Below are positions 345-35,290 of a stretch of 64,000 bases of DNA, piece after piece. The position numbers and the translations under genes were made by a program. Within the stretch, counting starts at the first letter, position 1. Each line of letters starts with the position of its first letter. The notes below the pieces were generated by a model. That model saw nothing but the letters and a program-made list of their open reading frames with translations. It had not been told where the DNA came from and did no database searches. The DNA is from Romanomermis culicivorax (Eukaryota; Nematoda; Enoplea; Mermithida; Mermithidae), in assembly GCA_963922205.1 (NCBI GenBank), contig CAWUHX010000007.1:1922001-1986000 (forward strand). The letters are read 5' to 3'.

Positions 345-1419
345 TTTCATGAGGCGTTCATGGCGCATATGGCGAATGAGGCGTTTGTGGCGAATGAGGC
401 GTTTGTGGCGCATGAGGCGTTTGTGGCGCATGGGGCGTTTGTGGCGCATGAGGCGTTTGTGGCGCATGGGGCGTTTGTGGCGCATGAGGCGTTTGTGGCG
501 CATGAGGCGTTTGTGGCGCATGGGGCGTTTGTGGCCTATTGGGCGTTTGTGGCGCATGAGGCGTTTGTGGCGCATTGGGCGTTTGTGGCGCATGAGGCGT
601 TATGTGGTGCATAGGGCGTTTGTGGCATATGGAGCGTTTGTGGCGCATGAGGCCTTTGTGGCGCGTGGGGCGTTTGTGGGGTATGGGGCGTTTGTGGCGC
701 ATGAGGCGTTTGTGGTGCATGCGGCGTTTGTGGCGCATGAGGCGTTTGTGGCGCATGAGGCGTTTGTGGCGCATGAGGCGTTATGTGGCGCATGGGGCGT
801 TTGTGGAATATGGAGCGTTTGTGGCGCATGAGGCCTTTGTGGCGCATGAGGCGTTTGTGGCCTATGGGGCATCTGTGGCGCATGAGGCCGTTGTGGCGCA
901 TGGGGCGTTTGTGGCGCATGAGGCGTTTGTGGCCCATTAGGCGTTTGTGGCGCATGAGGCGTTTGTGGCGCATGGGGCGTTTGTGGCGTATGGGGCCTTT
1001 GTGGCACATGAGGCGTTTGTGGCGCATTGGGCGTTTGTGGCGCATGAGGCGTTTGTGGCGTATGGGGCGTTTGTGGCGCACTAGGCGTTTGTGGCGCATT
1101 GGGCGTTTGTGGCGCATGAGGCATTTGTGGCGCATGGGGCGTTTGTGGCGCATGAGGCGTTTGTGGCGTATGGGGCCTTTGTGGTGCACGAGGCATTTGT
1201 GGCGCATTGGGCGTTTGTGATGCATGAGGCGTTTGTGGCATATGGGGCGTTTGTGGCGCATTAGGCGTTTGTGGCGCATTGGGCATTTGTGGCGCATGAG
1301 GCGTTTGTGGCGCATGGGGCGTTTGTGGCGCATGGGGCGTTTGTGGCGCATGATGCGTTTGTGGCGCATTGGGCGTTTGTGGCGCATGAGGCGTTTGTGG
1401 CGCATGAGGCGTTATGAGG

Positions 1420-4400
1420 CGTATGGGGCGTTTGTGGCACACGAGGCGTTTGTGGCGCATGGGGCGTTTGTGGCGCATGAGGCGTTTATGGCGTATGGGG
1501 CCTTTCTGGCGCATGAGGCGTTTGTGGCGCATTGGGCGTTTGTGACGCATTGGGCGTTTGTGGCGCATAAGGCGTTTGTGGGGTATGGGGCGTTTGTGGC
1601 GTATGGGGCGTTTGTGGCGCATGAGGCGTTTGTGGCACATAGGGCGTTTGTGGCGCATGGGGCGTTTGTGGCGCATGGGGCGTTAGTAGGGCATGAGGCG
1701 TTTGTGGCGCATGGGGCGTTAGTGGCGCATGAGGCGTTTGTGGCGCATGAGGCGTTTGTGGCGTATGAGGCCTTTGTGGCGCATGAGGCGTTTGTGGCAC
1801 ATTGGGCGTTTGTGGTGCATGAGGCGTTTGTGGCGTATGGGGCGTTTGTGGCGCATTAGGCGTTTGTGGTGCATTACGCCTTTGTGGCGCATGAGGCGTT
1901 TGTGGAGCATGGGCCGTTTGTGGCGTATGAGGCGTTTGTGGCACATGGGGCGTTAGTGGCGCATGAGGCATTTGTGGCGCATGAGGCGTTTGTGGCGCAT
2001 GGGGCGTTTGTGGGGCATGAGGTGTTTGCGGTGCATTGGGCGTTTGTGGCGCATGAGGCGTTTGTGGCACATGGGGCGTTAGTGGCGCATGAGGCGTTTG
2101 TGGCGAATGAGGCGTTTGTGGCATATGAGGCGTTTGTGATGCATGAGGCGTTTGTGGCATATGAGGCGTTTGTGATGCATGAGGCGTTATGTGGCGCATG
2201 GGGCGTTTTTGGCGTATGGGGCGTTTGTGGCGCATGAGGCGTTCCTGGTGCATGGGGCGTTTGTGGCGTATGGGGCGTTTGTGGCGCATGAGGCGTTTGT
2301 GGCACATGGGGCGTTTGTGGCGCATGAGGCGTTATGTGGCGCATGGGGCGTTTGTAACGTATAGGGCCTTTGTGGCGCATGAGGCGTTTGTGGCGCATGG
2401 GGCGTTTGTGGCATATGGGGCGTTTATGGCACATGAGGCGTTTGTGGCGCATGGGGCGTTTGTGGCCCATGAGGCGTTTAACATGCATTGGGCGTTTGTA
2501 GCAATGAGGCGTTTGTGGCGCATGGGGCGTTTGTGGCCTATGGGGCCTTTGTGGCGCATAAGGGGTTTGTGGTGCATTGGGCGTTTGTGGCGCATGAGGC
2601 GTTTGTGGCGTATGGGGCGTTTGTGGCGCATAAGGCGTTTGTGGGACATTGGGCGTTTGTGGCTCATGGGGCTTTTGTGGCGCATGAGGCATTATATGGC
2701 GCATGTGGCGTTTGTGGCGTATGGGGCGTTTGTGGCGCATGGGGCGTTATGTGGGGCATGGAGCGTTTGTGGTGTATGGGGCGTTTGTGGCCCATGAGGC
2801 GTTTGTGGCGCATGGGGCATTTGTGGCACATGAGGTGTTTGTGGCGCATTGGGCGTTTGTGGCACATGAGGCGTTTGTGGCCCATGAGGCGTTTGTGGCG
2901 CATGAGGTGTTTATGGCGTATGGGGCCTTTGTGGCGCATGAGGCGTTTGTGGCGCATTGGGCGTTTGTGGCGCATGAGCCATTTGTGGCATATGGGGCGT
3001 TTGTGGGGCATTAGGCGTTTGTGGCGCATGGGGCGTTTGTGGCGCGTGAGGCGTTTGTGGTGCATGAGGTGTTTGTGGCACATGGGGCGTTTGTGGCACA
3101 TGGGGCGTTTGTGGCGCATAAGGCGTTTGTGGCGCATTGGGCGTTTGTGGCGCATGAGGCTTTTGTGGCGCATGAGGCCTTATGTTGCGCATGGGGCGTT
3201 TGTGGCGTATGGGGCGTTTGTGGTGCATGGGGCGTTATGTGGGGCATGGGGCGTTTGTGGTGTATGGGGGGTTTGTGGCGCATGAGGCGTTTGTGGCGCA
3301 TGGGGCGTTTGTGGCGCATGAGGCGTTTGTGGCGCATGAGGCGTTATGAGGCCTATGGGGCGTTTGTGGCACATGAGGCGTTTGTGGTGCATGGGGTGTT
3401 TGTGGCGCATAAGGCGTTTGTGGCGCATGAGGAGTTATGAGGCGTATGGGGCGTTTGTGGCACACGAGGCGTTTGTGGCGCATGGGGCGTTTGTGGCGCA
3501 TGAGGCGTTTATGGCGTATGGGGCCTTTGTGGCGCATGAGGCGTTTGTGGCGCATTGGGCGTTTGTGGCGCATTGGGCGTTTGTGGCATATGGGGCGTTT
3601 GTGGCGCATGAGGCGTTTGTGGCACATAGGGCGTTTGTGGCGCATGGGGCGTTTGTGGCGCATGGGGCGTTAGTAGGGCATGAGGCGTTTGTGGCGCATG
3701 GGGCGTTAGTGGCGCATGAGGCGTTTGTGGCACATGAGGCGTTTGTGGCGTATGAGGCCTTTGTGGCGCATGAGGCGTTTGTGGCGCATTGGGCGTTTGT
3801 GGTGCATGAGGCGTTTGTGGCGTATAGGGCGTTTGTGGCGCATTAGGCGTTTGTGGTGCATTGGGCCTTTGTGGCGCATGAGGCGTTTGTGGGGCATGGG
3901 CCGTTTGTGGCGTATGAGGCGTTTGTGGCACATGGGGCGTTAGTGGCGCATGAGGCATTTGTGGCGCATGAGGCGTTTGTGGCGCATGGGGCGTTTGTGG
4001 CGCATGAGGCGTTTGCGGTGCATTGGGCGTTTGTAGCGCATGAGGCGTTTGTGGCACATAGGGCGTTAGTGGCGCATGAGGCGTTTGTGGCGAATGAGGC
4101 GTTTGTGGCGTATGGGGCCTTTGTGGCGCATGAGGCGTTTGTGGCGCATTGGGCGTTTGTGGTGCATGAGGCGTTTGTGGCGTATGGGGCAATTGTGGCA
4201 CATTAGGCGTTTGTGGTGCATTGGGCCTTTGTGGCGCATGAGGTGTTTGTGGCGCATGGGGCGTTTGTGGCGTATGAGGCGTTTGTGGCGCATGGGGCGT
4301 TTGTGGCGTATGGGGCCTTTGTGGCGCATGAGCTGTTTGTGGCGCATGGGGCGTTTGTGGCGCATGAGGCGTTTGTGGCGCATGGGGCGTTAGTTTCGCA

Positions 4401-7400
4401 TGAGGCATTTGTGGCACATGGGGCGTTAGTGGCGCATGAGGCGTTTGTGGCAAATGAGGCGTTTGTGGCGCATGAGGCGTTTGTGGCACATGGGGCGTTA
4501 GTGGCGCATGAGGCCTTTGTGGCGAATGAGGCGTTTGTGGCGTATGGGGCCTTTGTGGTGCATGAGGCGTTTGTGGCACATTGGGCGTTTGTGGTGCATG
4601 AGGCGTTTGTGGCGTATGGGGCGTTTGTGGCCCATTAAGCATTTGTGGCGCATTGGGCGTTTGTGGCGCATGAGGTGTTTGTGGCCCATGGGGCGTTTGT
4701 GGCGCATTGGGCGTTTGTGGTGCATGAGGCGTTTGTGGCGCATGAGTCGTTATGTGGCGCATGGGGGGTTTGTGGCGCATGAGGCGTTTGTGGTGCATGG
4801 GGCGTTTGTGGCGCTTGGGGCATATGTGGTGCATGAGGCATTTGTGGCGCATGAGGCGTTTGTGGCGCATGGGGCGTTTGTGGCGTATAGGGCGTTTGTG
4901 GCGCATGAGGCGTTTGTGGGGCATGAGGCATTATGTAGCGCATGGGGCGTTTGTGGCGCATGAGGCGTTTGTGGCGCATGAGGCGTTTGTGGCATATGAG
5001 GCGTTTGTGATGCATGAGGCGTTATGTGGCGCATGGGGCGTTTTTGGCGTATGGGGCGTTTGTGGCGCATGAGGCGTTCGTGGTGCATGGGGCGTTTGTG
5101 GCGTATGGGGCGTTTGTGGCGCATGAGGCGTTTGTGGCACATGGGGCGTTTGTGGCGCATGAGGCATTTGTGGCGCATTGGGTGTTTGTGGCGCATGAGG
5201 CATTTGTGGCGCATGAGGCGTTATGTGGCGCATGGGGCGTTTGTAACGTATAGGGCCTTTGTGGCGCATGAGGCGTTTGTGGCGCATGGGGCGTTTGTGG
5301 CATATGGGGCGTTTATGGCGCATGAGGCGTTTGTGGCGCATGGGGCGTTTGTGGCCCATGAGGCGTTTAACATGCATTGGGCGTTTGTAGCAATGAGGCG
5401 TTTGTGGCACATGGGGCGTTTGTTGCGTATGGGGCCTTTGTGGCGCATGAGGGGTTTGTGGTGCATTGGGCGTTTGTGGCGCATGAGGCCTTTGTGGCGT
5501 ATGGGGTGTTTGTGGCGCATAAGGCTTATGTGGCACATTGGGCGTTTGTGGCTCATGGGGCTTTTGTGGCGCATGAGGCATTATATGGCGCATGTGGCGT
5601 TTGTGGCGTATGGGGCATTTGTGGCGCATGGGGCGTTTGTGGCGTATGAGGCGTTTGTGGCGCATGGGGCGTTTGTGGCGTATGGGGCCTTTGTGGCGCA
5701 TGAGCTGTTTGTGGCGCATGGGGCGTTTGTGGCGCATGATGCGTTTGTGGCGCATGGGGCGTTAGTTTTGCATGAGGCATTTGTGGCACATGGGGCGTTA
5801 GTGGCGCATGAGGCGTTTGTGGCAAATGAGGCGTTTGTGGCGCATGGGGCGTTTGTGGCCCATGAGGCGTTTGTGGTGCATGGGGCATTTGTGGCACATG
5901 AGGTGTTTGTGGCGCATTGGGCGTTTGTGGCACATGAGGCGTTTGTGGCCCATGAGGCGTTAGTGGCCCATGAGGTGTTTATGGCGTATGGGGCCTTTGT
6001 GGCGCATGAGGCGTTTGTGGCGCATTGGGCGTTTGTGGCGCATGAGCCATTTGTGGCATATGGGGCGTTTGTGGGGCATTAGGCATTTGTGGCACATGGG
6101 GCGTTTGTGGCGCGTGAGGCGTTTGTGGTGCATGAGGTGTTTGTGGCACATGGGGCGTTTGTGGCACATGGGGCGTTTGTGGCGCATAAGGCGTTTGTGG
6201 CGCATTGGGCGTTTGTGGGGCATGAGGCTTTTGTGGCGCATGAGGCCTTATGTTGCGCATGGGGCGTTTGTGGCGTATGGGGCGTTTGTGGTGCATGGGG
6301 CGTTATGTGGGGCATGGGGCGTTTGTGGTGTATGGGGCGTTTGTGGCGCATGAGGCGTTTGTGGCACATGGGGCGTTTGTGGCGCATGAGGCATTTGTGG
6401 CGCATTGGGCGTTTGTGGCGCATGAGGCGTTTGTGGCGCATGAGGCGTTATGTGGCGCATGGGGCGTTTGTAACGTATAGGGCCTTTGTGGCGCATGAGG
6501 CGTTTGTGGCGCATGGGGCGTTTGTGGCATATGGGGCGTTTATGGCACATGAGGCGTTTGTGGCGCATGGGGCGTTTGTGGCCCATGAGGCGTTTAACAT
6601 GCATTGGGCGTTTGTAGCAATGAGGCGTTTGTGGCGCATGGGGCGTTTGTGGCCTATGGGGCCTTTGTGGCGCATAAGGGGTTTGTGGTGCATTGGGCGT
6701 TTGTGGCGCATGAGGCGTTTGTGGCGTATGGGGCATTTGTGGCGCATAAGGCGTTTGTGGGACATTGGGCGTTTGTGGCTCATGGGGCTTTTGTGGCGCA
6801 TGAGGCATTATATGGCGCATGTGGCGTTTGTGGCGTATGGGGCGTTTGTGGCGCATGGGGCGTTATGTGGGGCATGGAGCGTTTGTGGTGTATGGGGCGT
6901 TTGTGGCCCATGAGGCGTTTGTGGCGCATGGGGCATTTGTGGCACATGAGGTGTTTGTGGCGCATTGGGCGTTTGTGGCACATGAGGCGTTTGTGGCCCA
7001 TGAGGCGTTTGTGGCGCATGAGGTGTTTATGGCGTATGGGGCCTTTGTGGCGCATGAGGCGTTTGTGGCGCATTGGGCGTTTGTGGCGCATGAGCCATTT
7101 GTGGCATATGGGGCGTTTGTGGGGCATTAGGCGTTTGTGGCGCATGGGGCGTTTGTGGCGCGTGAGGCGTTTGTGGTGCATGAGGTGTTTGTGGCACATG
7201 GGGCGTTTGTGGCACATGGGGCGTTTGTGGCGCATAAGGCGTTTGTGGCGCATTGGGTGTTTGTGGCGCATGAGGCTTTTGTGGCGCATGAGGCCTTATG
7301 TTGCGCATGGGGCGTTTGTGGCGTATGGGGCGTTTGTGGCGCATGGGGCGTTATGTGGGGCATGGGGCGTTTGTGGTGTATGGGGCGTTTGTGGCGCATG

Positions 7401-10400
7401 AGGCGTTTGTGGCGCATGGGGCGTTTGTGGCGCATGAGGCGTTTGTGGCGCATGAGGCATTATGAGGCCTATGGGGCGTTTGTGGCACATGAGGCGTTTG
7501 TGGCGCATGGGGTGTTTGTGGCGCATGAGGGGTTTGTGGCGCATGAGGCGTTATGAGGCGTATGGGGCGTTTGTGGCACACGAGGCGTTTGTGGCGCATG
7601 GGGCGTTTGTGGCGCATGAGGCGTTTATGGCGTATGGGGCCTTTGTGGCGCATGAGGCGTTTGTGGCACATTGGGCGTTAGTGGCGCATGAGGCGTTTGT
7701 GGCACATGAGGGGTTTGTGGCGTATGAGGCCTTTGTGGCGCATGAGGCGTTTGTGGCGCATTGGGCGTTTGTGGTGCATGAGGCGTTTGTGGCGTATAGG
7801 GCGTTTGTGGCGCATTAGGCGTTTGTGGTGCATTGGGCCTTTGTGGCGCATGAGGCGTTTGTGGGGCATGGGCCGTTTGTGGCGTATGAGGCGTTTGTGG
7901 CACATGGGGCGTTAGTGGCGCATGAGGCATTTGTGGCGCATGAGGCGTTTGTGGCGCATGGGGCGTTTGTGGCGCATGAGGCGTTTGCGGTGCATTGGGC
8001 GTTTGTGGCGCATGAGGCGTTTGTGGCACATAGGGCGTTAGTGGCGCATGAGGCGTTTGTGGCGAATGAGGCGTTTGTGGCGTATGGGGCCTTTGTGGCG
8101 CATGAGGCGTTTGTGGCGCATTGGGCGTTTGTGGTGCATGAGGCGTTTGTGGCGTATGGGGCAATTGTGGCACATTAGGCGTTTGTGGTGCATTGGGCCT
8201 TTGTGGCGCATGAGGTGTTTGTGGCGCATGGGGCGTTTGTGGCGTATGAGGCGTTTGTGGCGCATGGGGCGTTTGTGGCGTATGGGGCCTTTGTGGCGCA
8301 TGAGCTGTTTGTGGCGCATGGGGCGTTTGTGGCGCATGAGGCGTTTGTGGCGCATGGGGCGTTAGTTTCGCATGAGGCATTTTTGGCACATGGGGCGTTA
8401 GTGGTGCATGAGGCGTTTGTGGCAAATGAGGCGTTTGTGGCGCATGAGGCGTTTGTGGCACATGGGGCGTTAGTGGCGCATGAGGCCTTTGTGGCGAATG
8501 AGGCGTTTGTGGCGTATGGGGCCTTTGTGGTGCATGAGGCGTTTGTGGCACATTGGGCGTTTGTGGTGCATGAGGCGTTTGTGGCGTATGGGGCGTTTGT
8601 GGCCCATTAAGCATTTGTGGCGCATTGGGCGTTTGTGGCGCATGAGGTGTTTGTGGCCCATGGGGCGTTTGTGGCGCATTGGGCGTTTGTGGTGCATGAG
8701 GCGTTTGTGGTGCATGAGCCGTTTGTGGCATATGGGGCATTTGTAGAGCATTAGGCGTTTGTGGCATATGGGGCATTTGTTGCGCATGAGGCGTTTGTGG
8801 CGCATTGGGCGTTTGTGGCACATGAGGTGTTTGTGGCGCATGAGGCGTTATGTGGCGCATGGGGCGTTTGTGGCCTATGGGGCATTTGTGGCGCATGAGG
8901 CGTTTGTGGCGCATGGGGCGTTTGTGGCGCATGGAGCGTTTGTGGCGCATGGGGCGTCTGTGGCACATGGGGCGTTTGTGGCGCATAAGGCGTTTGTGGT
9001 GCATTGGGCGTTTGTGGCGCATGAGGCTTTTGTGGCGCATGAGGCGTTATGTGGCGCATGAGGCATTTTTGGTGCATGGGGTGTTATGTGGCGCATGGGG
9101 CGTTTGTGGCGTATAGGGCCTTTGTGGCGCATGAGGCATTTGTGGGGCATGGGGCGTTTGTGGTGCATGAGGCGTTTGTGGTGCATGGGGTGTTTGTGGC
9201 GCATGAGGCGTTTGTGGCGCATGAGGTGTTTGTGGCGCATGGGGCGTCTGTGGCACATGGGGCCTTTGTGGCGCATAAGGGGTTTGTGGTGCATTGGGCG
9301 TTTGTGGCGCATGAGGCTTTTGTGGCACATGAGGCGTTATGTGGCGCATGGGGTGTTTGTGGCGTATGGGGCGTTTGTGGCGCATGGGGCATTAGATGGG
9401 GCATGGGGCGTTTCTGGTGTATGGGGCGTTTGTGGCGCATGAGGCTTTTGTGGCGCATGGGGCGTTTGTGGCGCATGAGGCATTTGTGGCGCATTGGGCG
9501 TTTGTGGCGCATGAGGCGTTTGTGGCGCATGAGGCGTTATGTGGCGCATGAGGTGTTTATGGCGTATGGGGCCTTTGTGGCGCATGAGGCGTTTGTGGCG
9601 CATTGGGCGTTTGTGGCGCATGAGCCATTTGTGGCATATGGGGCGTTTGTGGGGCATTAGGCATTTGTGGCACATGGGGCGTTTGTGGCGCGTGAGGCGT
9701 TTGTGGTGCATGAGGTGTTTGTGGCACATGGGGCGTTTGTGGCACATGGGGCGTTTGTGGCGCATAAGGCGTTTGTGGCGCATTGGGCGTTTGTGGGGCA
9801 TGAGGCTTTTGTGGCGCATGAGGCCTTATGTTGCGCATGGGGCGTTTGTGGCGTATGGGGCGTTTGTGGTGCATGGGGCGTTATGTGGGGCATGGGGCGT
9901 TTGTGGTGTATGGGGCGTTTGTGGCGCATGAGGCGTTTGTGGCACATGGGGCGTTTGTGGCGCATGAGGCATTTGTGGCGCATTGGGCGTTTGTGGCGCA
10001 TGAGGCGTTTGTGGCGCATGAGGCGTTATGTGGCGCATGGGGCGTTTGTAACGTATAGGGCCTTTGTGGCGCATGAGGCGTTTGTGGCGCATGGGGCGTT
10101 TGTGGCATATGGGGCGTTTATGGCACATGAGGCGTTTGTGGCGCATGGGGCGTTTGTGGCGCATGAGGCGTTTGTGGCACATGGGGCGTTTGTGGCGCAT
10201 GAGGCATTTGTGGCGCATTGGGCGTTTGTGGCGCATGAGGCGTTTGTGGCGCATGAGGCGTTATGTGGCGCATGGGGCGTTTGTAACGTATAGGGCCTTT
10301 GTGGCGCATGAGGCGTTTGTGGCGCATGGGGCGTTTGTGGCATATGGGGCGTTTATGGCACATGAGGCGTTTGTGGCGCATGGGGCGTTTGTGGCCCATG

Positions 10401-13400
10401 AGGCGTTTAACATGCATTGGGCGTTTGTAGCAATGAGGCGTTTGTGGCGCATGGGGCGTTTGTGGCCTATGGGGCCTTTGTGGCGCATAAGGGGTTTGTG
10501 GTGCATTGGGCGTTTGTGGCGCATGAGGCGTTTGTGGCGTATGGGGCATTTGTAGCGCATAAGGCGTTTGTGGGACATTGGGCGTTTGTGGCTCATGGGG
10601 CTTTTGTGGCGCATGAGGCATTATATGGCGCATGTGGCGTTTGTGGCGTATGGGGCGTTTGTGGCGCATGGGGCGTTATGTGGGGCATGGAGCGTTTGTG
10701 GTGTATGGGGCGTTTGTGGCCCATGAGGCGTTTGTGGCGCATGGGGCATTTGTGGCACATGAGGTGTTTGTGGCGCATTGGGCGTTTGTGGCACATGAGG
10801 CGTTTGTGGCCCATGAGGCGTTTGTGGGGCATGAGGTGTTTATGGCGTATGGGGCCTTTGTGGCGCATGAGGCGTTTGTGGCGCATTGGGCGTTTGTGGC
10901 GCATGAGCCATTTGTGGCATATGGGGCGTTTGTGGGGCATTAGGCGTTTGTGGCGCATGGGGCGTTTGTGACGCGTGAGGCGTTTGTGGTGCATGAGGTG
11001 TTTGTGGCACATGGGGCGTTTGTGGCACATGGGGCGTTTGTGGCGCATAAGGCGTTTGTGGCGCATTGGGTGTTTGTGGCGCATGAGGCTTTTGTGGCGC
11101 ATGAGGCCTTATGTTGCGCATGGGGCGTTTGTGGCGTATGGGGCGTTTGTGGCGCATGGGGCGTTATGTGGGGCATGGGGCGTTTGTGGTGTATGGGGCG
11201 TTTGTGGCGCATGAGGCGTTTGTGGCGCCTGGGGCGTTTGTGGCGCATGAGGCGTTTGTGGCGCATGAGGCGTTATGAGGCCTATGGGGCGTTTGTGGCA
11301 CATGAGGCGTTTGTGGCGCATGGGGTGTTTGTGGCGCATGAGGCGTTTGTGGCGCATGAGGCGTTATGAGGCGTATGGGGCGTTTGTGGCACACGAGGCG
11401 TTTGTGGCGCATGGGGCGTTTGTGGCGCATGAGGCGTTTATGGCGTATGGGGCCTTTGTGGCGCATGAGGCGTTTGTGGCACATTGGGCGTTAGTGGCGC
11501 ATGAGGCGTTTGTGGCACATGAGGCGTTTGTGGCGTATGAGGCCTTTGTGGCGCATGAGGCGTTTGTGGCGCATTGGGCGTTTGTGGTGCATGAGGCGTT
11601 TGTGGCCTATAGGGCGTTTGTGGCGCATTAGGCGTTTGTGGTGCATTGGGCCTTTGTGGCGCATGAGGCGTTTGTGGGGCATGGGCCGTTTGTGGCATAT
11701 GAGGCGTTTGTGGCACATGGGGCGTTAGTGGCGCATGAGGCATTTGTGGCGCATGAGGCGTTTGTGGCGCATGGGGCGTTTGTGGCGCATGAGGCGTTTG
11801 CGGTGCATTGGGCGTTTGTGGCGCATGAGGCGTTTGTGGCACATAGGGCGTTAGTGGCGCATGAGGCGTTTGTGGCGAATGAGGCGTTTGTGGCGTATGG
11901 GGCCTTTGTGGCGCATGAGGCGTTTGTGGCGCATTGGGCGTTTGTGGTGCATGAGGCGTTTGTGGCGTATGGGGCAATTGTGGCACATTAGGCGTTTGTG
12001 GTGCATTGGGCCTTTGTGGCGCATGAGGTGTTTGTGGCGCATGGGGCGTTTGTGGCGTATGAGGCGTTTGTGGCGCATGGGGCGTTTGTGGCGTATGGGG
12101 CCTTTGTGGCGCATGAGCTGTTTGTGGCGCATGGGGCGTTTGTGGCGCATGAGGCGTTTGTGGCGCATGGGGCGTTAGTGGTGCATGAGGCGTTTGTGGC
12201 AAATGAGGCGTTTGTGGCGCATGAGGCGTTTGTGGCACATGGGGCGTTAGTGGCGCATGAGGCCTTTGTGGCGAATGAGGCGTTTGTGGCGTATGGGGCC
12301 TTTGTGGTGCATGAGGCGTTTGTGGCACATTGGGCGTTTGTGGTGCATGAGGCGTTTGTGGCGTATGGGGCGTTTGTGGCCCATTAAGCATTTGTGGCGC
12401 ATTGGGCGTTTGTGGCGCATGAGGTGTTTGTGGCCCATGGGGCGTTTGTGGCGCATTGGGCGTTTGTGGTGCATGAGGCGTTTGTGGCGCATGAGTCGTT
12501 ATGTGGCGCATGGGGGGTTTGTGGCGCATGAGGCGTTTGTGGTGCATGGGGCGTTTGTGGCGCTTGGGGCATATGTGGTGCATGAGGCATTTGTGGCGCA
12601 TGAGGCGTTTGTGGCGCATGGGGCGTTTGTGGCGTATAGGGCGTTTGTGGCGCATGAGGCGTTTGTGGGGCATGAGGCATTATGTGGCGCATGGGGCGTT
12701 TGTGGCGCATGAGGCGTTTGTGGCGCATGAGGCGTTTGTGGCATATGAGGCGTTTGTGATGCATGAGGCGTTATGTGGCGCATGGGGCGTTTTTGGCGTA
12801 TGGGGCGTTTGTGGCGCATGAGGCGTTCGTGGTGCATGGGGTGTTTGTGGCGTATGGGGCGTTTGTGGCGCATGAGGCGTTTGTGGCACATGGGGCGTTT
12901 GTGGCGCATGAGGCATTTGTGGCGCATTGGGCGTTTGTGGCGCATGAGGCATTTGTGGCGCATGAGGCATTATGTGGCGCATGGGGCGTTTGTAACGTAT
13001 AGGGCCTTTGTGGCGCATGAGGCGTTTGTGGCGCATGGGGCGTTTGTGGCATATGGGGCGTTTATGGCGCATGAGGCGTTTGTGGCGCATGGGGCGTTTG
13101 TGGCCCATGAGGCGTTTAACATGCATTGGGCGTTTGTAGCAATGAGGCGTTTGTGGCACATGGGGCGTTTGTTGCGTATGGGGCCTTTGTGGCGCATGAG
13201 GGGTTTGTGGTGCATTGGGCGTTTGTGGCGCATGAGGCCTTTGTGGCGTATGGGGTGTTTGTGGCGCATAAGGCTTATGTGGCACATTGGGCGTTTGTGG
13301 CTCATGGGGCTTTTGTGGCGCATGAGGCATTATATGGCGCATGTGGCGTTTGTGGCGTATGGGGCGTTTGTGGCGCATGGAGCGTTATGTGGGGCATGGA

Positions 13401-14030: not shown

Positions 14031-14380
14031 AGGCTTTTTGTGGCGCATGGGGCGTTTGTGGCATATGGGGCCTTTGTGGTGCATGAGGCGTTTGTGGCGC
14101 TTTGGGCGTTTGTGGCGCATGAGGCGTTTGTGGCCTATGGGGTGTTTGTGGCGCATTAGGCGTTTGTGGCGTATTGGGCGTTCACGGCGCATGAGGCGTT
14201 TGTGGCGCATGGGGCCTTTGTGGCTCATGAGGCGTTTGTGGCGCATGGGGCGTTTGTGGCGTATGGGGCATTTGTGGCGCATGAGGCGTTTGTGGCGCAT
14301 GGGGCGTTTGTGGCGCATGAGGCGTTTGTGGCGCATTGGGCGTTTGTGGCGCATGAGGCTTTTTTGGTGCATGGGGCGTT

Positions 14381-17300
14381 ATGTGGCGCATGGGGCGTTT
14401 GTGGCGTATAGGGCCTTTGTGGCGCATGAGGCATTTGTGGGGCATGGGGCGTTTGTGGTGCATGAGGCGTTTGTGGTGCATGGGGTGTTTGTGGCACATG
14501 AGGCGTTTGTGGCGCATGAGGTGTTTGTGGCGCATGGGGCGTCTGTGGCACATGGGGCGTTTGTGGCGCATAAGGCGTTTGTGGTGCATTGGGCGTTTGT
14601 GGCGCATGAGGCTTTTGTGGCACATGAGGCGTTATGTGGCGCATGGGGTGTTTGTGGCGTATGGGGCGTTTGTGGCGCATGGGGCATTAGATGGGGCATG
14701 GGGCGTTTCTGGTGTATGGGGCGTTTGTGGCGCATGAGGCAATTGTGGCGCATGGGGCGATTGTGGCACATGAGGGGTTTGTGGCCCATTGGGCGTTTGT
14801 GGGGCATGAGGCGTTTGTGGCCCATGAGGCGTTTGTGGCGCATGAGGTGTTTATGGCGTATGGGGCCTTTGTGGCCCATGAGGCCTTTGTGGCGCATTGG
14901 GCGTTTCTGGCGCATGAGCCGTTTGTGGCATATGGGGCGTTTGTGGCGCATTAGGCGTTTGTGGCGCATGGGGCGTTTGTGGCGCATGAGGCATTTGTGG
15001 CATATGGGGCGTTTGTGGCGCATAAGGCATTTGTGGCGCATTGGGCGTTTGTGGCGCATGGGGCTTTTGTGGCGCATGAGGCATTATATGGCGCATGGGG
15101 CGTTTGTGGCGTATGGGGCGTTTGTGGCGCATGGGGCGTTATGTGGGGCATGGAGCGTTTGTGGCGTATGGGGCGTTTGTGGCGCATGAGGCGTTTGTGG
15201 TGCATGGGGCGTTTGTGGCACATGAGGTGTTTGGGGCGCATTGGGCGTTTGTGGCGCATGAGGCGTTTATGGCCCATGAGGCCTTTGTGGCGCATGAGGT
15301 GTTTATGGTGTATGGGGCCTTTGTGGCGCATGAGGCGTTTGTGGCGCATTGGGCGTTTGTGGCGCATGGGGCGTTTGTGGCTCATGAGGCGTTTGTGGCG
15401 CATGGGGCGTTTGTGGCATATGGGGCGTTTGTGGCGCATGAGGCGTTTGTGTCACATGGGGCGTTTGTGGCGCATGGTGCGTTTGTGGCGCATTGGGAGT
15501 TTGTGGCGCATGAGGCATTTGTGGCGCATGAGGCATTATGTGGCGCAGGGGGCGTTTGTGGCCTATAGGGCCTTTGTGGCACATGAGGTGTTTGTGGCAC
15601 ATGGGGCGTTTGTGGCACATGGGGCGTTTGTGACATATGGGGCATTTGTGGGGCACGAGGCATTTGTGGCGCATGGGGCGTTTGTGGCGGATGAGGCGTT
15701 TGTCGCGCATGGGGCGTTTGTGGCGTATGGGGCCTTTGTGGCGCAGTAGGCGTTTGTGGCGCTTTTGGCTTTTGTGGCGCATGAGGCGTTTGTGGCCTAT
15801 GGGGCGTTTGTGGCGCATTAGGCGTTTGTGGTGTATTGGGCGTTTGTGGCGCATGAGGCGTTTGTGGCGCATGGGGCGTTTGTGGCTCATGAGGCGTTTG
15901 TGGCGCATGGGGCGTTTGTGGCGTATGGGGCGTTTGTGGCACATGAGGCATTTGTGGTGCATGGGGCGTTTGTGGCGCATGGTGCGTTTGTGGCCCATTG
16001 GGCGTTTGTGGCGCATAAGGCATTTGTGGCGCATGAGGCATTATGTGGCGCATGGGGCGTTTGTGGCCTATAGGGCCTTTGTGGCGCATGAGGCATTTGT
16101 GGCGCATGGGGCGTTTGTGGTGCATGAGGCGTTTGTGGGGTATGGGGCCTTTGTGGTGCATGGGGCATTTGTGGCGCTTTGGGCGTTCGTGGCGCATGAG
16201 GCGTTTGTGGCGTATGGGGCGTTTGTGGCGCATTAGGCGTTTGTGGCGCATTGGGCGTTTGTGGCGCTTTTGGCTTTTGTGGCGCATGAGGCGTTTGTGG
16301 CCTATGGGGCGTTTGTGTCACATGGGGCGTTTGTGGCGCATGGTGCGTTTGTGGTGCATTGGGAGTTTGTGGCGCATGAGGCATTTGTGGCGCATGAGGC
16401 ATTATGTGGCGCAGGGGGCGTTTGTGGCCTATAGGGCCTTTGTGGCACATGAGGTGTTTGTGGCACATGGGGCATTTGTGGCACATGGGGCGTTTGTGAC
16501 ATATGGGGCGTTTGTGGCGCACGAGGCATTTGTGGCGCATGGGGCGTTTGTGGCGGATGAGGCGTTTGTCGCGCATGGGGCGTTTGTGGCGTATGGGGCC
16601 TTTGTGGCGCATGAGGCGTTTGTGGCGCTTTTGGCTTTTGTGGCGCATGAGGCGTTTGTGGCCTATGGGGCGTTTGTGGCGCATTAGGCGTTTGTGGTGT
16701 ATTGGGGGTTTGTGGCGCATGAGGCGTTTGTGGCGCATGGGGCGTTTGTGGCTCATGAGGCGTTTGTGGCGCATGGGGCGTTTGTGGCGTATGGGGCGTT
16801 TGTGGCGCATGAGGCATTTGTGGTGCATGGGGCGTTTGTGGCGCATGGTGCGTTTGTGGCCCATTGGGCGTTTGTGGCGCATAAGGCATTTGTGGCGCAT
16901 GAGGCATTATGTGGCGCATGGGGCGTTTGTGGCCTATAGGGCCTTTGTGGCGCATGAGGCATTTGTGGCGCATGGGGCGTTTGTGGTGCATGAGGCATTT
17001 GTGGGGTATGGGGCCTTTGTTGTGCATGGGGCATTTGTGGCGCTTTGGGCGTTTGTGGCACATGGGGCGTTTGTGGCGCATGGTGTGTTTGTGGCGCATG
17101 AGGCGTTTGTGGCCTATGGGGCATTTGTGGCGCATGAGGCGTTTGTTACGCATTGGGCGTTTCTGGCGCATGAGCCTTTTGTGGCATATGGGGCGTTTGT
17201 GGCGCATTAGGTGTTTGTGGCCCATGGGGCGTTTTTGGGGCATGAGGCATTTGTGGCGTATGAGGCGTTTGTGGCGCATTGGGCGTTTGTGGTGCATGAG

Positions 17301-20300
17301 CCGTTTGTGGCATATGGGGCATTTGTGGAGCATTAGGCGTTTGTGGCATATGGGGCATTTGTGGCGCATGAGGCGTTTGTGGCGCATTGGGCGTTTGTGG
17401 CACATGAGGTGTTTGTGGCGCATGAGGCGTTATGTGGCGCATGGGGCGTTTGTGGCCTATGGGGCATTTGTGGCGCATGAGGCGTTTGTGGCGCATGGGG
17501 CGTTTGTGGCGCATGGAGCGTTTGTGGCGCATGGGGTGTTTGTGGTGCATGAGGCGTTTGTGGAGCATGAGGTGTTTGTGGCGCATGGGGCGTCTGTGGC
17601 ACATGGGGCGTTTGTGGCGCATAAGGCGTTTGTGGTGCATTGGGCGTTTGTGGCACATGAGGCTTTTGTGGCGCATGAGGCGTTATGTGGCGCATGAGGC
17701 ATTTTTGGTGCATGGGGCGTTATGTGGCGCATGGGGCGTTTGTGGCGTATAGGGCCTTTGTGGCGCATGAGGCATTTGTGGGGCATGGGGCGTTTGTGGT
17801 GCATGAGGCGTTTGTGGTGCATGGGGTGTTTGTGGCGCATGAGGCGTTTGTGGCGCATGAGGTGTTTGTGGCGCATGGGGCGTCTGTGGCACATGGGGCG
17901 TTTGTGGCGCATAAGGCGTTTGTGGTGCATTGGGCGTTTGTGGCGCATGAGGCTTTTGTGGCACATGAGGCGTTATGTGGCGCATGGGGTGTTTGTGGCG
18001 TATGGGGCGTTTGTGGCGCATGGGGCATTAGATGGGGCATGGGGCGTTTCTGGTGTATGGGGCGTTTGTGGCGCATGAGGCAATTGTGGCGCATGGGGCG
18101 ATTGTGGCACATGAGGGGTTTGTGGCCCATTGGGCGTTTGTGGGGCATGAGGCGTTTGTGGCCCATGAGGCGTTTGTGGTGCATGAGGTGTTTATGGCGT
18201 ATGGGGCCTTTGTGGCCCATGAGGCCTTTGTGGCGCATTGGGCGTTTCTGGCGCATGAGCCGTTTGTGGCATATGGGGCGTTTGTGGCGCATTAGGCGTT
18301 TGTGGCGCATGGGGCGTTTGTGGCGCATGAGGCATTTGTGGCATATGGGGCGTTTGTGGCGCATAAGGCATTTGTGGCGCATTGGGCGTTTGTGGCGCAT
18401 GGGGCTTTTGTGGCGCATGAGGCATTATATGGCGCATGGGGCGTTTGTGGCGTATGGGGCGTTTGTGGCGCATGGGGCGTTATGTGGGGCATGGAGCGTT
18501 TGTGGCGTATGGGGCGTTTGTGGCGCATGAGGCGTTTGTGGTGCATGGGGCGTTTGTGGCACATGAGGTGTTTGGGGTGCATTGGGCGTTTGTGGCGCAT
18601 GAGGCGTTTATGGCCCATGAGGCCTTTGTGGCGCATGAGGTATTTATGGTGTATGGGGCCTTTGTGGCGCATGAGGCGTTTGTGGCGCATTGGGCGTTTG
18701 TGGCGCATGGGGCGTTTGTGGCTCATGAGGCGTTTGTGGCGCATGGGGCGTTTGTGGCATATGGGGCGTTTGTGGCGCATGAGGCGTTTGTGTCACATGG
18801 GGCGTTTGTGGCGCATGGTGCGTTTGTGGTGCATTGGGAGTTTGTGGCGCATGAGGCATTTGTGGCGCATGAGGCATTATGTGGCGCAGGGGGCGTTTGT
18901 GGCCTATAGGGCCTTTGTGGCACATGAGGTGTTTGTGGCACATGGGGCGTTTGTGGCACATGGGGCGTTTGTGACATATGGGGCGTTTGTGGGGCACGAG
19001 GCATTTGTGGCGCATGGGGCGTTTGTGGCGGATGAGGCGTTTGTCGCGCATGGGGCGTTTGTGGCGTATGGGGCCTTTGTGGCGCAGTAGGCGTTTGTGG
19101 CGCTTTTGGCTTTTGTGGCGCATGAGGCGTTTGTGGCCTATGGGGCGTTTGTGGCGCATTAGGCGTTTGTGGTGTATTGGGCGTTTGTGGCGCATGAGGC
19201 GTTTGTGGCGCATGGGGCGTTTGTGGCTCATGAGGCGTTTGTGGCGCATGGGGCGTTTGTGGCGTATGGGGCGTTTGTGGCACATGAGGCATTTGTGGTG
19301 CATGGGGCGTTTGTGGCGCATGGTGCGTTTGTGGCCCATTGGGCGTTTGTGGCGCATAAGGCATTTGTGGCGCATGAGGCATTATGTGGCGCATGGGGCG
19401 TTTGTGGCCTATAGGGCCTTTGTGGCGCATGAGGCATTTGTGGCGCATGGGGCGTTTGTGGTGCATGAGGCGTTTGTGGGGTATGGGGCCTTTGTGGTGC
19501 ATGGGGCATTTGTGGCGCTTTGGGCGTTCGTGGCGCATGGAGCGTTTGTGGCGTATGGGGCGTTTGTGGCGCATTAGGCGTTTGTGGCGCATTGGGCGTT
19601 TGTGGCGCTTTTGGCTTTTGTGGCGCATGAGGCGTTTGTGGCCTATGGGGCGTTTGTGTCACATGGGGCGTTTGTGGCGCATGGTGCGTTTGTGGTGCAT
19701 TGGGAGTTTGTGGCGCATGAGGCATTTGTGGCGCATGAGGCATTATGTGGCGCAGGGGGCGTTTGTGGCCTATAGGGCCTTTGTGGCACATGAGGTGTTT
19801 GTGGCACATGGGGCGTTTGTGGCACATGGGGCGTTTGTGACATATGGGGCGTTTGTGGCGCACGAGGCATTTGTGGCGCATGGGGCGTTTGTGGCGGATG
19901 AGGCGTTTGTCGCGCATGGGGTGTTTGTGGCGTATGGGGCCTTTGTGGCGCATGAGGCGTTTGTGGCGCTTTTGGCTTTTGTGGCGCATGAGGCGTTTGT
20001 GGCCTATGGGGCGTTTGTGGCGCATTAGGCGTTTGTGGTGTATTGGGGGTTTGTGGCGCATGAGGCGTTTGTGGCGCATGGGGCGTTTGTGGCTCATGAG
20101 GCGTTTGTGGCGCATGGGGCGTTTGTGGCGTATGGGGCGTTTGTGGCGCATGAGGCATTTGTGGTGCATGGGGCGTTTGTGGCGCATGGTGCGTTTGTGG
20201 CCCATTGGGCGTTTGTGGCGCATAAGGCATTTGTGGCGCATGAGGCATTATGTGGCGCATGGGGCGTTTGTGGCCTATAGGGCCTTTGTGGCGCATGAGG

Positions 20301-21060
20301 CATTTGTGGCGCATGGGGCGTTTGTGGTGCATGAGGCGTTTGTGGGGTATGGGGCCTTTGTGGTGCATGGGGCATTTGTGGCGCTTTGGGCATTTGTGGC
20401 ACATGGGGCGTTTGTGGCGCATGGTGTGTTTGTGGCGCATGAGGCGTTTGTGGCCTATGGGGCATTTGTGGCGCATGAGGCGTTTGTTACGCATTGGGCG
20501 TTTCTGGCGCATGAGCCTTTTGTGGCATATGGGGTGTTTGTGGCGCATTAGGCGTTTGTGGCCCATGGGGCGTTTTTGGGGCATGAGGCATTTGTGGCGT
20601 ATGAGGCGTTTGTGGCGCATTGGGCGTTTGTGGTGCATGAGCCGTTTGTGGCATATGGGGCATTTGTGGAGCATTAGGCGTTTGTGGCATATGGGGCATT
20701 TGTGGCGCATGAGGCGTTTGTGGCGCATTGGGCGTTTGTGGCACATGAGGTGTTTGTGGCGCATGAGGCGTTATGTGGCGCATGGGGCGTTTGTGGCCCA
20801 TGGGGCATTTGTGGCGCATGAGGCGTTTGTGGCGCATGGGGCGTTTGTGGCGCATGGAGCGTTTGTGGCGCATGGGGTGTTTGTGGTGCATGAGGCGTTT
20901 GTGGAGCATGAGGTGTTTGTGGCGCATGGGGCGTCTGTGGCACATGGGGCGTTTGTGGCGCATAAGGCGTTTGTGGTGCATTGGGCGTTTGTGGCGCATG
21001 AGGCTTTTGTGGCGCATGAGGCGTTATGTGGCGCATGGGGCGTTTGTGGCGTGTGGGGCG
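14381..21060 (+). repeat. Higher-order repeat block B: 3,341-bp tandem duplication
   Basis: At least six landmarks recur at exactly 3,341 bp (14,381/17,722, 15,095/18,436, 15,637/18,978, 16,043/19,384, 16,503/19,844, 16,909/20,250) with few differences. This is a recent segmental duplication inside the array. Each copy holds a nested duplication at offset 866 bp, marked by the variant GCAGGGGGCGTTTGTGGCC at about 15,545 and 16,411 and again at about 18,886 and 19,752. Confidence 0.85.
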
Positions 21061-24800: not shown

Positions 24801-27800
24801 TTAGGCATTTGTGGCCCATGAGGCGTTTGTGGCGCAAGGGGCGTTTGTGGCATATGGGGCCTTTGTGGCGCATTAGGCTTTTGTGGCAGATTGGGCATTT
24901 GTGGCGCATGGGGCGTTTGTGGCGCATGGGGCATTTGTGGCCCATGAGGTGTTTGTGGCACATGAGGCGTTTGTGGCATATGGGGCCTTTGTGGGGCATG
25001 AGGCGATTGTGGCGCATTGGGCGTTTGTGGTGCATGAGGCCTTTGTGGCGTATGGGGCGTTTGTGGTGCATTAGGCGTTTGTGGCCCATTGGGCCTTTGT
25101 GGCGCATGAGGCCTTTGTGGAGCATGGGGGGTTTGTGGCGCATGGTGCTTTTGTGGGGCATTGGGCGTTTGTGGCGCATGAGGCCTTTGTGGCGCATGGA
25201 GCGTTATGTGGCGCATGGGGTGTTTGTGGAGTATGGTGCGTTTGTGGCGCATGAGGCATTTGTGGCGCATGGGGTGTTTGTGGCGCATGGGGCATTTGTG
25301 GCGCATGGGGCGTTTGTGGCGCATGAGGGGTTTGTGGCACATGGGGCGTTTGTGGCGCATGAGGCATTATGTGGCGCATGGGGCCTTGGTGGCGTATGGG
25401 GCATTTGTGGCGCATGAGGCGTTTGTGGCACATGGGGCGTTTGTGGCGCATGAGGCGTTTGTGGGGCATTGGGCGTTTGTGGTGCATGAGGCATTTGTGG
25501 TGCATTGGGCCTTTGTGGGGCATGAGGCATTATGTGGCGCATGAGGCCTTTGTGGCCCATTGGGCGTTTGTGGCGCATAAGGCGTTTGTAGCGTATGGGG
25601 CCTTTGTGGCGCATTAGGCGTTTGTGGGGTATGGGGCCTTTGTGGCGCATGAGGCGTTTTTGGCGCATGGGGCGTTTGTGGCGCATGAGGCGTTTGTCGC
25701 ACATGGGGCATTTGTGGCGCATGAGGCGTTTGTGGGGCATTGGGCGTTTGTGGTGCATGAGGCGTTTGTGGTGCATGGGGCCTTTGTGGCCCATGAGGCA
25801 TTATGTGGCGCATGAGGCGTTTGTAACGAGTTGGGCGTTTGTGGCGCATAAGGCGTTTGTGGCCTATGGGGCGTTTGTGGCGCATTAGGCGTTTGTGGGG
25901 TATGGGGCCTTTGTGGCGCATGAGGCGTTTTTGGCGCATGGGGCGTTTGTGGCGCATGGGGCGTTTGTGGCCCATGGGGTGTTTTTGGGGCATGAGGCAT
26001 TTGTGGCGCATGAGGCGTTTGTGGGGCATGGGGCGTTTGTGGCATATGGGGCCTTTGTGGCGCATTAGGCATTTGTGGCCCATGAGGCGTTTGTGGCGCA
26101 AGGGGCGTTTGTGGCATATGGGGCCTTTGTGGCGCATGAGGCGTTTGTGGCGCATTGGGCGTTTGTGGCGCATGAGGCATTTGTGGGGTATGGGGCATTT
26201 GTGGCGCATTAGGTGTTTGTGGCGCATTGGGCGTTTGTGGTGCATGAGGCATTCGTGGCGCATGGGGCATTTGTGGCGCATGGTGCATTTGTGGCGCATG
26301 AGGCGTTTGTGGCGGATTGGGGTTTGTGGCGCATGAGGCGTTTGTGGCGTATGGGGCGTTTGTGGCGCATTAGGTGATTGTGGCGCATTGGGCGTTTGTG
26401 GCGGGTGAGGCCTTCGTGGCACATGGGGCGTTTGTGGCCCATGAGGCGTTTGTGGCGCATGAGGGGTTTGTGGCATTGGGGCCTTTGTGGCGCATGAGGC
26501 GTTTGTGGTGCATTGGGCGTTTGTGGCGCATGAGGTGTTTGTGGCGCATGAGGCGTTTGTGGCCTATGGGGCATTTGTGGCGCATGAGGTGTTTGTGGCG
26601 CATTGGGCGTTTGTGGCGCATGAGGCATTTGTGGCGCATTAGGCATTTGTGGCCCATGAGGCGTTTGTGGCGCAAGGGGCGTTTGTGGCATATGGGGCCT
26701 TTGTGGCGCATGAGGCGTTTGTGGCATATTGGGCGTTTGTGGCGCATGAGGCGTTTGTGGCGTATGGGGCGTTTGTGGCGCATTAGGCTTTTGTGGCAGA
26801 TTGGGCATTTGTGGCGCATGGGGCGTTTGTGGCGCATGGGGCATTTGTGGCCCATGAGGTGTTTGTGGCGCATGAGGCGTTTGTGGCATATGGGGCCTTT
26901 GTGGGGCATGAGGTGATTGTGGCGCATTGGGCGTTTGTGGTGCATGAGGCCTTTGTGGCGTATGGCATTTGTGGTGCATTAGGCGTTTGTGGCCCATTGG
27001 GCGTTTGTGGCGCATGAGGCCTTTGTGGAGCATGGGGGGTTTGTGGCGCATGGTGCTTTTGTGGGGCATTGGGCGTTTGTGGCGCATGAGGCCTTTGTGG
27101 CGCATGGAGCGTTATGTGGCGCATGGGGTGTTTGTGGAGTATGGTGCGTTTGTGGCGCATGAGGCATTTGTGGCGCATGGGGTGTTTGTGGCGCATGGGG
27201 CCTTGGTGGCGTAAGGGGCATTTGTGGCGCATGAGGCGTTTGTGGCACATGGGGCGTTTGTGGTGCATGAGGCGTTTGTGGGGCATTGGGCGTTTGTGGT
27301 GCATGAGGCGTTTGTGGTGCATTGGGCCTTTGTGGGGCATGAGGCATTATGTGGCGCATGAGGCCTTTGTGGCCCATTGGGCGTTTGTGGCGCATAAGGC
27401 GTTTGTAGCGTATGGGGCGTTTGTGGCGCATTAGGCGTTTGTGGGGTATGGGGCCTTTGTGGCGCATGAGGTGTTTTTAGCGCATGGGGCGTTTGTGGCG
27501 CATGAGGCGTTTGTCGCACATGGGGCATTTGTGGCGCATGAGGCGTTTGTGGGGCATTGGGCGTTTGTGGTGCCTGAGGCGTTTGTGGTGCATGGGGCCT
27601 TTGTGGCCCATAAGGCATTATGTGGCGCATGAGGCGTTTGTAACGAGTTGGGCGTTTGTGGCGCATAAGGCGTTTGTGGCCTATGGGGCGTTTGTGGCGC
27701 ATTAGGCGTTTGTGGGGTATGGGGCCTTTGTGGCGCATGAGGCGTTTTTGGCGCATAGGGCGTTTGTGGCGCATGGGGCGTTTGCGGCCCATGGGGTGTT

Positions 27801-30200
27801 TTTGGGGCATGAGGCATTTGTGGCGCATGAGGCGTTTGTGGGGCATAGGGCGTTTGTGGCATATGGGGCCTTTGTGGCACATTAGGCATTTGTGGCCCAT
27901 GAGGCGTTTGTGGCGCAAGGGGCGTTTGTGGCATATGGGGCCTTTGTGGCGCATGAGGCGTTTGTGGCGCATTGGGCGTTTGTGGCGCATGAGGCATTTG
28001 TGGGGTATGGGGCATTTGTGGCGCATTAGGTGTTTGTGGCGCATTGGGCGTTTGTGGTGCATGAGGCATTCGTGGCGCATGGGGCATTTGTGGCGCATGG
28101 TGCATTTGTGGCGCATGAGGCGTTTGTGGCGGATTGGGGTTTGTGGCGCATGAGGCGTTTGTGGCGTATGGGGCGTTTGTGGCGCATTAGGTGTTTGTGG
28201 CGCATTGGGCGTTTGTGGCGGGTGAGGCCTTTGTGGCACATGGGGCGTTTGTGGCCCATGAGGCGTTTGTGGCGCATGAGGGGTTTGTGGCATTGGGGCC
28301 TTTGTGGCGCATGAGGCGTTTGTGGCGCATTGGGCGTTTGTGGCGCATGAGGTGTTTGTGGCGCATGAGGCGTTTGTGGCCTATGGGGCATTTGTGGCGC
28401 ATGAGGTGTTTGTGGCGCATTGGGCGTTTGTGGCGCATGAGGCATTTGTGGCGCATTAGGCATTTGTGGCCCATGAGGCGTTTGTGGCGCAAGGGGCGTT
28501 TGTGGCATATGGGGCCTTTGTGGCACATGAGGCGTTTGTGGCGCATTGGGCGTTTGTGGCGCATGAGGCATTTGTGGGGTATAGGGCATTTGTGGCGCAT
28601 TAGGTGTTTGTGGCGCATTGGGCGTTTGTGGTGCATGAGGCATTCGTGGCGCATGGGGCGTTTGTGGCGCATGGTGCATTTGTGGCGCATGAGGCGTTTG
28701 TGGCGGATTGGGGTTTGTGGCGCATGAGGCGTTTGTGGCGTATGGGGCGTTTGTGGCGCATTAGGTGTTTGTGGCGCATTGGGCGTTTGTGGCGCGTGAG
28801 GCCTTTGTGGCACATGGGGCGTTTGTGGCCCATGAGGCGTTTGTGGCGCATGAGGGGTTTGTGGCATTGGGGCCTTTGTGGCGCATGAGGCGTTTGTGGC
28901 ACATGGGGCATTTGTGGCCCATGAGGCGTTTGTGGTGCATGAGGCGTTTGTGGCATATTGGGCCTTTGTGGCACATGAGGCGTTTGTGGCGCATTGGGCG
29001 TTTGTGGCGCATGAGGCATTTGTGGCGCATTGGGCGTTTGTGGCGCATTAGGCGTTTGTGGCGCATTGGGCGTTTGTGGCGCATGAGGCGTTTGTGGTGC
29101 ATGGGGCGTTTGTGGCACATGGTGCATTTGTGGCGCATGAGGCGTTTGTGGCGTATTGGGCGTTTGTGGCGCATGAGGCGTTTGTGGCGTATGGGGCGTT
29201 TGTGGCGCATTAGGCTTTTGTGGCAGATTGGGCATTTGTGGCGCATGGGGCGTTTGTGGCGCATGGGGCATTTGTGGCCCATGAGGTGTTTGTGGGGCAT
29301 GAGGCGTTTGTGGCATATGGGGCCTTTGTGGGGCATGAGGCGATTGTGGCGCATTGGGCGTTTGTGGTGCATGAGGCCTTTGTGGCGTATGGGGCCTTTG
29401 TGGTGCATTAGGCGTTTGTGGCCCATTGGGCCTTTGTGGCGCATGAGGCCTTTGTGGCGCATGGGGCGTTTGTGGCGCATGGTGCTTTTGTGGGGCATTG
29501 GGCGTTTGTGGCGCATGAGGCCTTTGTGGCGCATGGAGCGTTATGTGGCGCATGGGGTGTTTGTGGAGTATGGTGCGTTTGTGGCGCATGAGGCATTTGT
29601 GGCGCATGGGGTGTTTGTGGCGCATGAGGGGTTTGTGGCACATGGGGCGTTTGTGGCGTATGAGGCATTATGTGGCGCATGGGGCCTTGGTGGCGTATGG
29701 GGCATTTGTGGCGCATGAGGCGTTTGTGGCACATGGGGCGTTTGTGGCACATGAGGCGTTTGTGGGGCATTGGGCGTTTGTGGTGCATGAGGGGTTTGTG
29801 GTGCATTGGGCCTTTGTGGGGCATGAGGCATTATGTGGCGCATGAGGCCTTTGTGGCCCATTGGGCGTTTGTGGCGCATAAGGCGTTTGTGGCGTATGGG
29901 GCGTTTGTGGCGCATTAGGCGTTTGTGGGGTATGGGGCCTTTGTGGCGCATGAGGCGTTTTTGGCGCATGGGGCGTTTGTAACGCATGAGGCGTTTGTCG
30001 CACATGGGGCGTTTGTGGCCCATGAGGCGTTTGTGGGGCATTGGGCGTTTGTGGTGCATGAGGCGTTTGTGGTGCATGGGGCCTTTGTGGCGCATGAGGC
30101 ATTATGTGGCGCATGAGGCGTTTGTAACGCGTTGGGCGTTTGTGGCGCATAAGGCGTTTGTGGCCTATGGGGCATTTGTGGCGCATTAGGCGTTTGTGGG
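21900..30200 (+). repeat. Higher-order repeat block C
   Basis: A composite segment is repeated with start landmarks near 23,404, 25,206, 27,114 and 29,543 (offsets 1,802, 1,908 and 2,429). All carry the variant GGTGTTTGTGGAGTATGGTGC. A second landmark, GTTTGTAACGAGTTGGGC, recurs near 23,980, 25,820 and 27,640. Unequal offsets show gain and loss of whole runs of 18-bp units between copies. Confidence 0.75.
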
Positions 30201-33593: not shown

Positions 33594-33840
33594 TGGGGCG
33601 TTTGTGGCGTATAGGGCGTTTGTGGCGCATGAGGCGTTTGTGGCGCATGGGGCCTTTGTGGCGCATGGGGCGTTTGTGGCGCAAGAGGCGTTTGTGGTGC
33701 ATTGGGCATTTGTGGCGCATGAGGCGTTTGTGGCGCATGGGGCGTCTGTGGTGCATGAGGCCTTTGTGGCGCATTGGGCGTTTGTGGTGCATGAGGTGTT
33801 TGTGGCGCATGAGGTGTTATGTGGCGCATGGGGCGTTTGT

Positions 33841-34777: not shown

Positions 34778-34789
34778 TGCATGAGACGT

Positions 34790-35290
34790 TTGTGGCCTAT
34801 GGGATGTTTTGGGGCATTAGGGGTTTGTGGCGCATGGGGCGTTTGTGGCACATGAGGCGTTTGTGGCGCATGAGGTGTTTGTGGTGTATGAGGCGTTTAT
34901 GGCGCATGAGGCGTTTGTGGCGCATGGGGCATTTGTGGGGCATGAGGCGTTTGTGGCGCATGGGGCGTTTGCGGCGCATGGGGGGTTTGTGGTGCATGAG
35001 GTGTTTGTGGCATATGGGGTGTTTATTATGTATGGGGCGTTTGTGGCGCATGAGGCGTTTGTGGTGAATGAGGCGTTTGCGGTGCATGTCGCATTTGTGG
35101 TTCATAGAGCATTTATGATGCATGTGGCGTTTGTAGCAATTACACCCCATGTGGCAGCTGTAGCACATTAGGTGTGTGTAACATGTATAGCGCATGTGAC
35201 ATTTATGGGGAATGCAACATTTGTGGCGCATATGTATGTAATATTTGTGGTGTATGCATTATATGAGCAGTGCATCATGGCATCTGTGAT
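34790..35290 (+). repeat. Decayed right edge of the satellite array
   Basis: Units become progressively degenerate (TTCATAGAGCATTTATGATG, then ATTTGTGGTGTATGCATTAT) before the sequence becomes unique. Such decay is expected at array edges that are no longer homogenised. The left edge is much sharper. Confidence 0.75.

Follow-up and report, generated by a model that had tools for sequence, protein, structure and literature searches.

An 18-bp satellite array with block duplications and CpG-focused change in the nematode Romanomermis culicivorax

Features of the locus

The window analysed is a 64,000-nucleotide stretch of contig CAWUHX010000007.1 of R. culicivorax, in which TRF identified a single array at positions 370-35134 (period 18, 1927.1 copies, consensus TGGCGCATGAGGCGTTTG, 81% matches and 0% indels). 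Wraparound alignment to the same consensus resolved 1937 monomers in 346 distinct aligned forms, beginning at position 350 and closing with a last monomer of 12 bases at 35287 (end approximately 35298). The main body of the array (350-35134, plus strand) was thus described as approximately 1930 monomers of a unit whose position 10 is either G (1002 monomers) or A (901 monomers). Its left edge is fairly sharp (approximately 345-370) and its right edge decays across 35134-35298, where approximately nine degenerate monomers (35135-35298, plus strand, about 160 bp) are found. The final 37 monomers show a mean identity of 80% to the consensus, whereas every preceding bin of 100 monomers averages 88-91%.

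The array is unbroken over approximately 35 kb and has a single orientation: exact 14-base cores of the unit occur 443 times forward and never in reverse. Allowing up to three mismatches, the unit has 1811 matches in the 64-kb window (dinucleotide shuffles gave a mean of 0.96 and a maximum of 4), all of them on the plus strand among the 200 matches listed. One extra A (TTATG), a frame-shifting insertion, is present in 95 monomers and deletions in only 32 of the 1937. No inversion or foreign insertion was seen, as inserts within monomers do not exceed 6 bases (the longest lying near 35224, in the decayed tail). GC content in 1-kb steps is 0.577-0.596 with a GC skew of 0.45-0.56, the plus strand being strongly skewed towards G and T, while outside the array GC is approximately 0.27-0.42 and mostly 0.30-0.40. 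An earlier, sequence-only reading of this DNA had described about 1,900 copies of an 18-bp unit, single in orientation, asymmetric between strands, free of inversions and unrelated insertions and GC-rich in AT-rich surroundings (here 58-59% GC beside approximately 35%), and each of these points is borne out.

Eleven columns of the unit are conserved at 95-99%. Beneath the 18-bp period (autocorrelation 0.78) there is one of 9 bp (0.56), and from this periodicity a 9-bp half-unit probably underlies the unit. The longest exact repeat within the array measures 614 bp, and the interval 345-35300 contains 2509 CpGs. A telomeric array was rejected as the repeat is flanked by non-array DNA, which extends for 345 bp to its left and approximately 28.7 kb to its right, and a quadruplex array was rejected on a mean G4Hunter score of 0.74, under the threshold of approximately 1.0-1.2.

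A transposon-bearing, CpG-depleted zone adjoins the array at 35301-41613, as delimited by transposon pieces and a CpG change-point. It includes eight degenerate copies of a tandem repeat of approximately 98 bp (36240-36966) and a broken ISXO2-like transposase on the minus strand, identified by matches to PF12762 just over the cut-off at 38149-38877 and 35619-35771. The latter is the nearest Pfam-supported piece and lies approximately 320 bp past the decayed end of the array, so that the distance of about 100 bp to transposon remnants previously proposed requires correction. An open piece at 35460-35618 adjoins it and looks like its continuation, with no Pfam hit of its own. An element of approximately 1.08 kb with inverted arms (37164-38247) sits between the two transposase pieces, as if inserted; its arms (37164-37372 and 38039-38247) are 209 nt long and 95% complementary.

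Further to the right, two pieces of a Dispatched-like protein were identified on the minus strand, one at 60283-60834 matching a solved structure (E 1.5e-14) and the other at 59679-60239 with Patched and sterol-sensing Pfam hits over cut-off. Sub-threshold matches to alpha/beta-hydrolases occur at 44286-44531 and 45852-46247, and the open frame at 63542-63928 matches the DB module under the Pfam cut-off (16.9 versus 25 bits). Ten more open frames in the flank had no Pfam hit at E 0.1. Rfam at gathering scores returned no match, and ARAGORN, run with the bacterial code, returned no tRNA.

Class of repeat and growth by block duplication

The array is a satellite or very large minisatellite, of a known kind and viewed here at one locus, and it lies in a repeat-rich zone beside genes. 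It looks non-coding, and no specific cellular function need be proposed for it. As in satellites, one unit is repeated head to tail over a long array in hundreds to thousands of copies, and blocks of monomers have been amplified and homogenised. It has been described for satellites and large minisatellites that blocks of monomers are amplified, with unequal exchange and conversion as proposed mechanisms (PMC5615363, in part). From the same text, the array resembles such repeats in being built of head-to-tail units in hundreds to thousands of copies, in its probable origin from a shorter unit and in the amplification of multi-monomer blocks. It differs in the length of the unit (18 bp, where 150-180 or 300-360 bp are given as common) and in lacking the regular period of satellites with higher-order amplification, its lags being variable.

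An exact 26-base pattern of the unit had no match in viral or prokaryote contigs, nor had six rotations or parts of it in PMC full text, all of which are poor places for a eukaryotic satellite. In the literature on 18-bp GC-rich satellites of nematodes, no title or abstract opening concerned such a unit, and it is not mentioned in the extracts returned for Mermis nigrescens and Echinomermella matsi.

Neighbouring monomers are 82.0% identical and random monomers 83.7% (z -16.5); that neighbours are less alike than random monomers argues against slippage of single units. Monomers at lags 2 and 4 are slightly more alike than random (z 3.1 and 7.0), which goes back to an old alternation between variants in columns 9-10. 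Recurring segments were identified at much greater distances, 134 in total, the eight longest of which comprise 78-195 monomers at lags of 101-439 monomers and 97.2-98.8% identity (1.2-2.8% of sites differ). The largest tandem block duplication occupies 14239-20919 on the plus strand (14239-17578 and 17579-20919, 185 monomers each), its full matching segment amounting to 195 monomers at 98.75%. It is followed in size by a pair within 6253-12268 (6253-8455 and 10067-12268, plus strand, 122 monomers, 98.4%), and a further pair lies within 25317-28628 (25317-26811 and 27135-28628, plus strand, 83 monomers, 97.4%). A regular higher-order period was sought and none stood out, the lags between blocks varying.

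With long segments recurring and neighbours unlike, growth was therefore mainly by block duplication and not by repeated slippage of one unit; the array and this mode of growth are nearly certain. The diversified array was enlarged mainly through the duplication of blocks of tens to approximately 200 monomers, for which unequal exchange, either between sister chromatids or between homologues, would be the mechanism, and some single monomers would have been replaced. These block duplications, together with the CpG pattern described below, go beyond what the sequence-only reading had reported.

CpG-focused change within the array

The unit contains two CpGs, at columns 4-5 and 13-14. Association between column pairs was calculated for seven variable columns in 1919 of the 1937 monomers (the first one and the last 17 being dropped). 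Double changes were observed 5 times at columns 4/5 against 71.7 expected, and once at columns 13/14 against 47.1 expected, while the observed/expected ratios of the remaining 19 column pairs were 0.43-1.76. Likewise, where C4 is intact, 397 of 1581 monomers carry a change at G5, compared with 6 of 356 where C4 is changed, and G14 is altered in 488 of 1744 monomers with C13 intact versus 4 of 193 with C13 changed. A control GC pair (columns 5-6) showed the opposite trend, the second base being changed in 244 of 1534 monomers with the first intact and in 140 of 403 with the first changed.

Linkage of founder variants could mimic this exclusion, so recent changes, those between duplicated blocks, were tested. 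The first eight block pairs overlap one another, so the test was repeated on eight disjoint pairs, chosen by hand from the 134 segments and in some cases trimmed (594 monomer pairs). Here single differences affected 47 of 1622 CpG sites, compared with 19 of 6534 core sites (p 2e-19) and 3 of 754 broken sites (p 2e-5). Intact CpG sites therefore change approximately ten times faster per site than conserved columns, and the rates at core columns (0.29%) and broken CpG columns (0.40%) are similar. Of the 78 single differences, 50 fall in CpG columns and 19 in the eleven core columns, the remaining 9 being at columns 6, 9 and 10. Between duplications the array wears mostly by point changes at the two CpGs of each unit, and once a CpG breaks its partner base returns to approximately the background rate, as seen in the disjoint pairs.

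A weaker, polarised test, which was restricted to monomers having two or more partners within segments of at least 30 monomers, was less clean on this second point. Change per site was 1.4% at broken and 1.5% at intact CpGs, that is, without contrast. The 16 broken-site events comprise eight with mixed ancestral states including a CG partner, one true broken-to-broken change and seven apparent restorations of CG. With definite ancestral states only, the figures are 8 of 1156 broken and 38 of 2562 intact sites, an approximately twofold difference. The seven apparent restorations are not accounted for by CpG decay; wrong polarity or replacement of monomers could lie behind them.

Probable germline methylation and rival explanations

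Methylated CpGs show a CpG-specific excess of change that ends when the CpG is broken. As the excess in the array stops at broken CpGs, its most likely cause appears to be germline CpG methylation that is directed to repeats and spares the genes nearby. The methylation step is less sure than the array and its block growth, and the combined explanation (a satellite array that grows by blocks and decays at CpGs through germline methylation of repeats) is considered probable.

Base composition beside the array is consistent with this reading. The CpG observed/expected ratio is 0.73 over 35301-42300 versus 1.12 over the gene region (42301-64000), and the GpC control is 1.09 and 1.06, respectively. 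The best change-point from CpG-poor to CpG-neutral sequence was placed at 41614, its likelihood gain being reached by none of 500 shuffles, and this sharp shift is possibly the edge of a methylated repeat domain. A ratio of 0.74 was obtained for the 345 bp to the left of the array, from only five CpGs. One exception, 36301-36800, lies inside the CpG-poor zone and the 98-bp repeats and has a ratio of 1.28.

The rival reading that survives best is an ordinary unmethylated satellite, and it is judged unlikely. On this account, the variation at CpG columns would come from a small number of founder variants redistributed as monomers are exchanged, double changes would be scarce because adjacent bases are tightly linked, and the CpG-poor zone would reflect the transposons' own base composition. 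Adjacent founder variants can indeed give such exclusion, and the seven apparent CG restorations speak in its favour. So do the inverted arms, where none of the 10 differing sites is a CpG-to-TpG change, a comparison of low power with three to four CpGs per arm. Furthermore, monomers with at least two differences exceed the Poisson expectation in all eight of the partly overlapping block pairs (in one of them slightly, 7 versus 6.4), which speaks for replacement. Of the 140 differences that such monomers carry in the disjoint pairs, 56 lie at columns 6, 9 and 10, and these monomers are read as replaced; as recent blocks differ at these founder columns too, replacement of monomers plays a part. 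However, random replacement predicts that 42% of single differences fall in columns 6, 9 and 10, where 8 of 82 were found in the overlapping set (p 2e-9, a value belonging to that set) and 9 of 78 in the disjoint set. Moreover, a positive association is seen at 5/6 and 9/10, the remaining pairs of adjacent variable columns.

Errors of assembly or base calling, as judged from the assembled sequence, are very unlikely to explain some of the recent differences or the length of the array. Miscalls where CpGs are modified could pass for recent changes at these sites, but in the overlapping set 467 dinucleotide pairs share the same non-CG state versus 118 with CG on one side only, so that older CpG variants are common to duplicated blocks. 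The scarcity of deletions, the absence of any exact repeat beyond 614 bp and the 1.2-2.8% divergence of the eight longest duplicated segments also stand against error. A functional element, whether a repeat that encodes protein or an array of binding sites with selection acting on its conserved columns, is the least credible alternative: the unit is open in some frames (longest stop-free stretch 354-551 codons by frame) and eleven columns are strongly conserved, but all six frames are interrupted by stops, 95 monomers carry the frame-shifting base and, when the unit is read in the frame FVAHEA, variable columns occur at all three codon positions, on which grounds the coding repeat was rejected, while core and broken CpG columns change alike, so no special constraint is needed.

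Under the methylation reading, a close parallel is found among nematodes that methylate their DNA, all of which are described as methylating transposons to some degree, with no compelling methylation of genes, in the parts of two reports considered here (PMC9246332, PMC8821070); the pattern suggested for the array, with repeats affected and genes spared, would be the same. Other animals also methylate repeats, for example Cnidaria (PMC8857917, in part). SSUsat, a G+C-rich satellite of the bivalve Spisula subtruncata, has been described in an excerpt of PMC5537241 as methylated above the genome average. Both are GC-rich invertebrate satellites; methylation was measured for SSUsat (PMC5537241), whereas for the array it is deduced from mutations.

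The array is ordinary in kind, and its mutation record is unusually readable. The nearly identical units, approximately two thousand in number and each with a pair of CpGs, amount, together with block duplications of different ages, to a replicated mutation experiment at one locus. If methylation is indeed the cause, DNA methylation in this species is predicted to be confined to repeats, and the array provides a measure of the CpG damage spectrum; if not, the satellite is an ordinary one.

The 47 recent CpG changes ended as CA (20), TG (15), GG (6) and CC (6). Changes of C to G thus make up 12 of the 47, a share for which there is no firm explanation and which is higher than would be expected of plain deamination. 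It could, speculatively, reflect repair intermediates or 3-methylcytosine, which is given as a by-product of DNMTs in a section of PMC9246332. A more specific version, in which the array records repeat-targeted CpG methylation with genes spared and about a quarter of recent CpG changes are C to G through error-prone bypass of lesions that glycosylases initiate or methyltransferases cause (such as abasic sites or 3-methylcytosine), is regarded as unlikely. Over the whole array, the four CpG columns hold the equivalents of 846 C-to-T, 492 C-to-G and 91 C-to-A changes, these being sums over events that are not independent.
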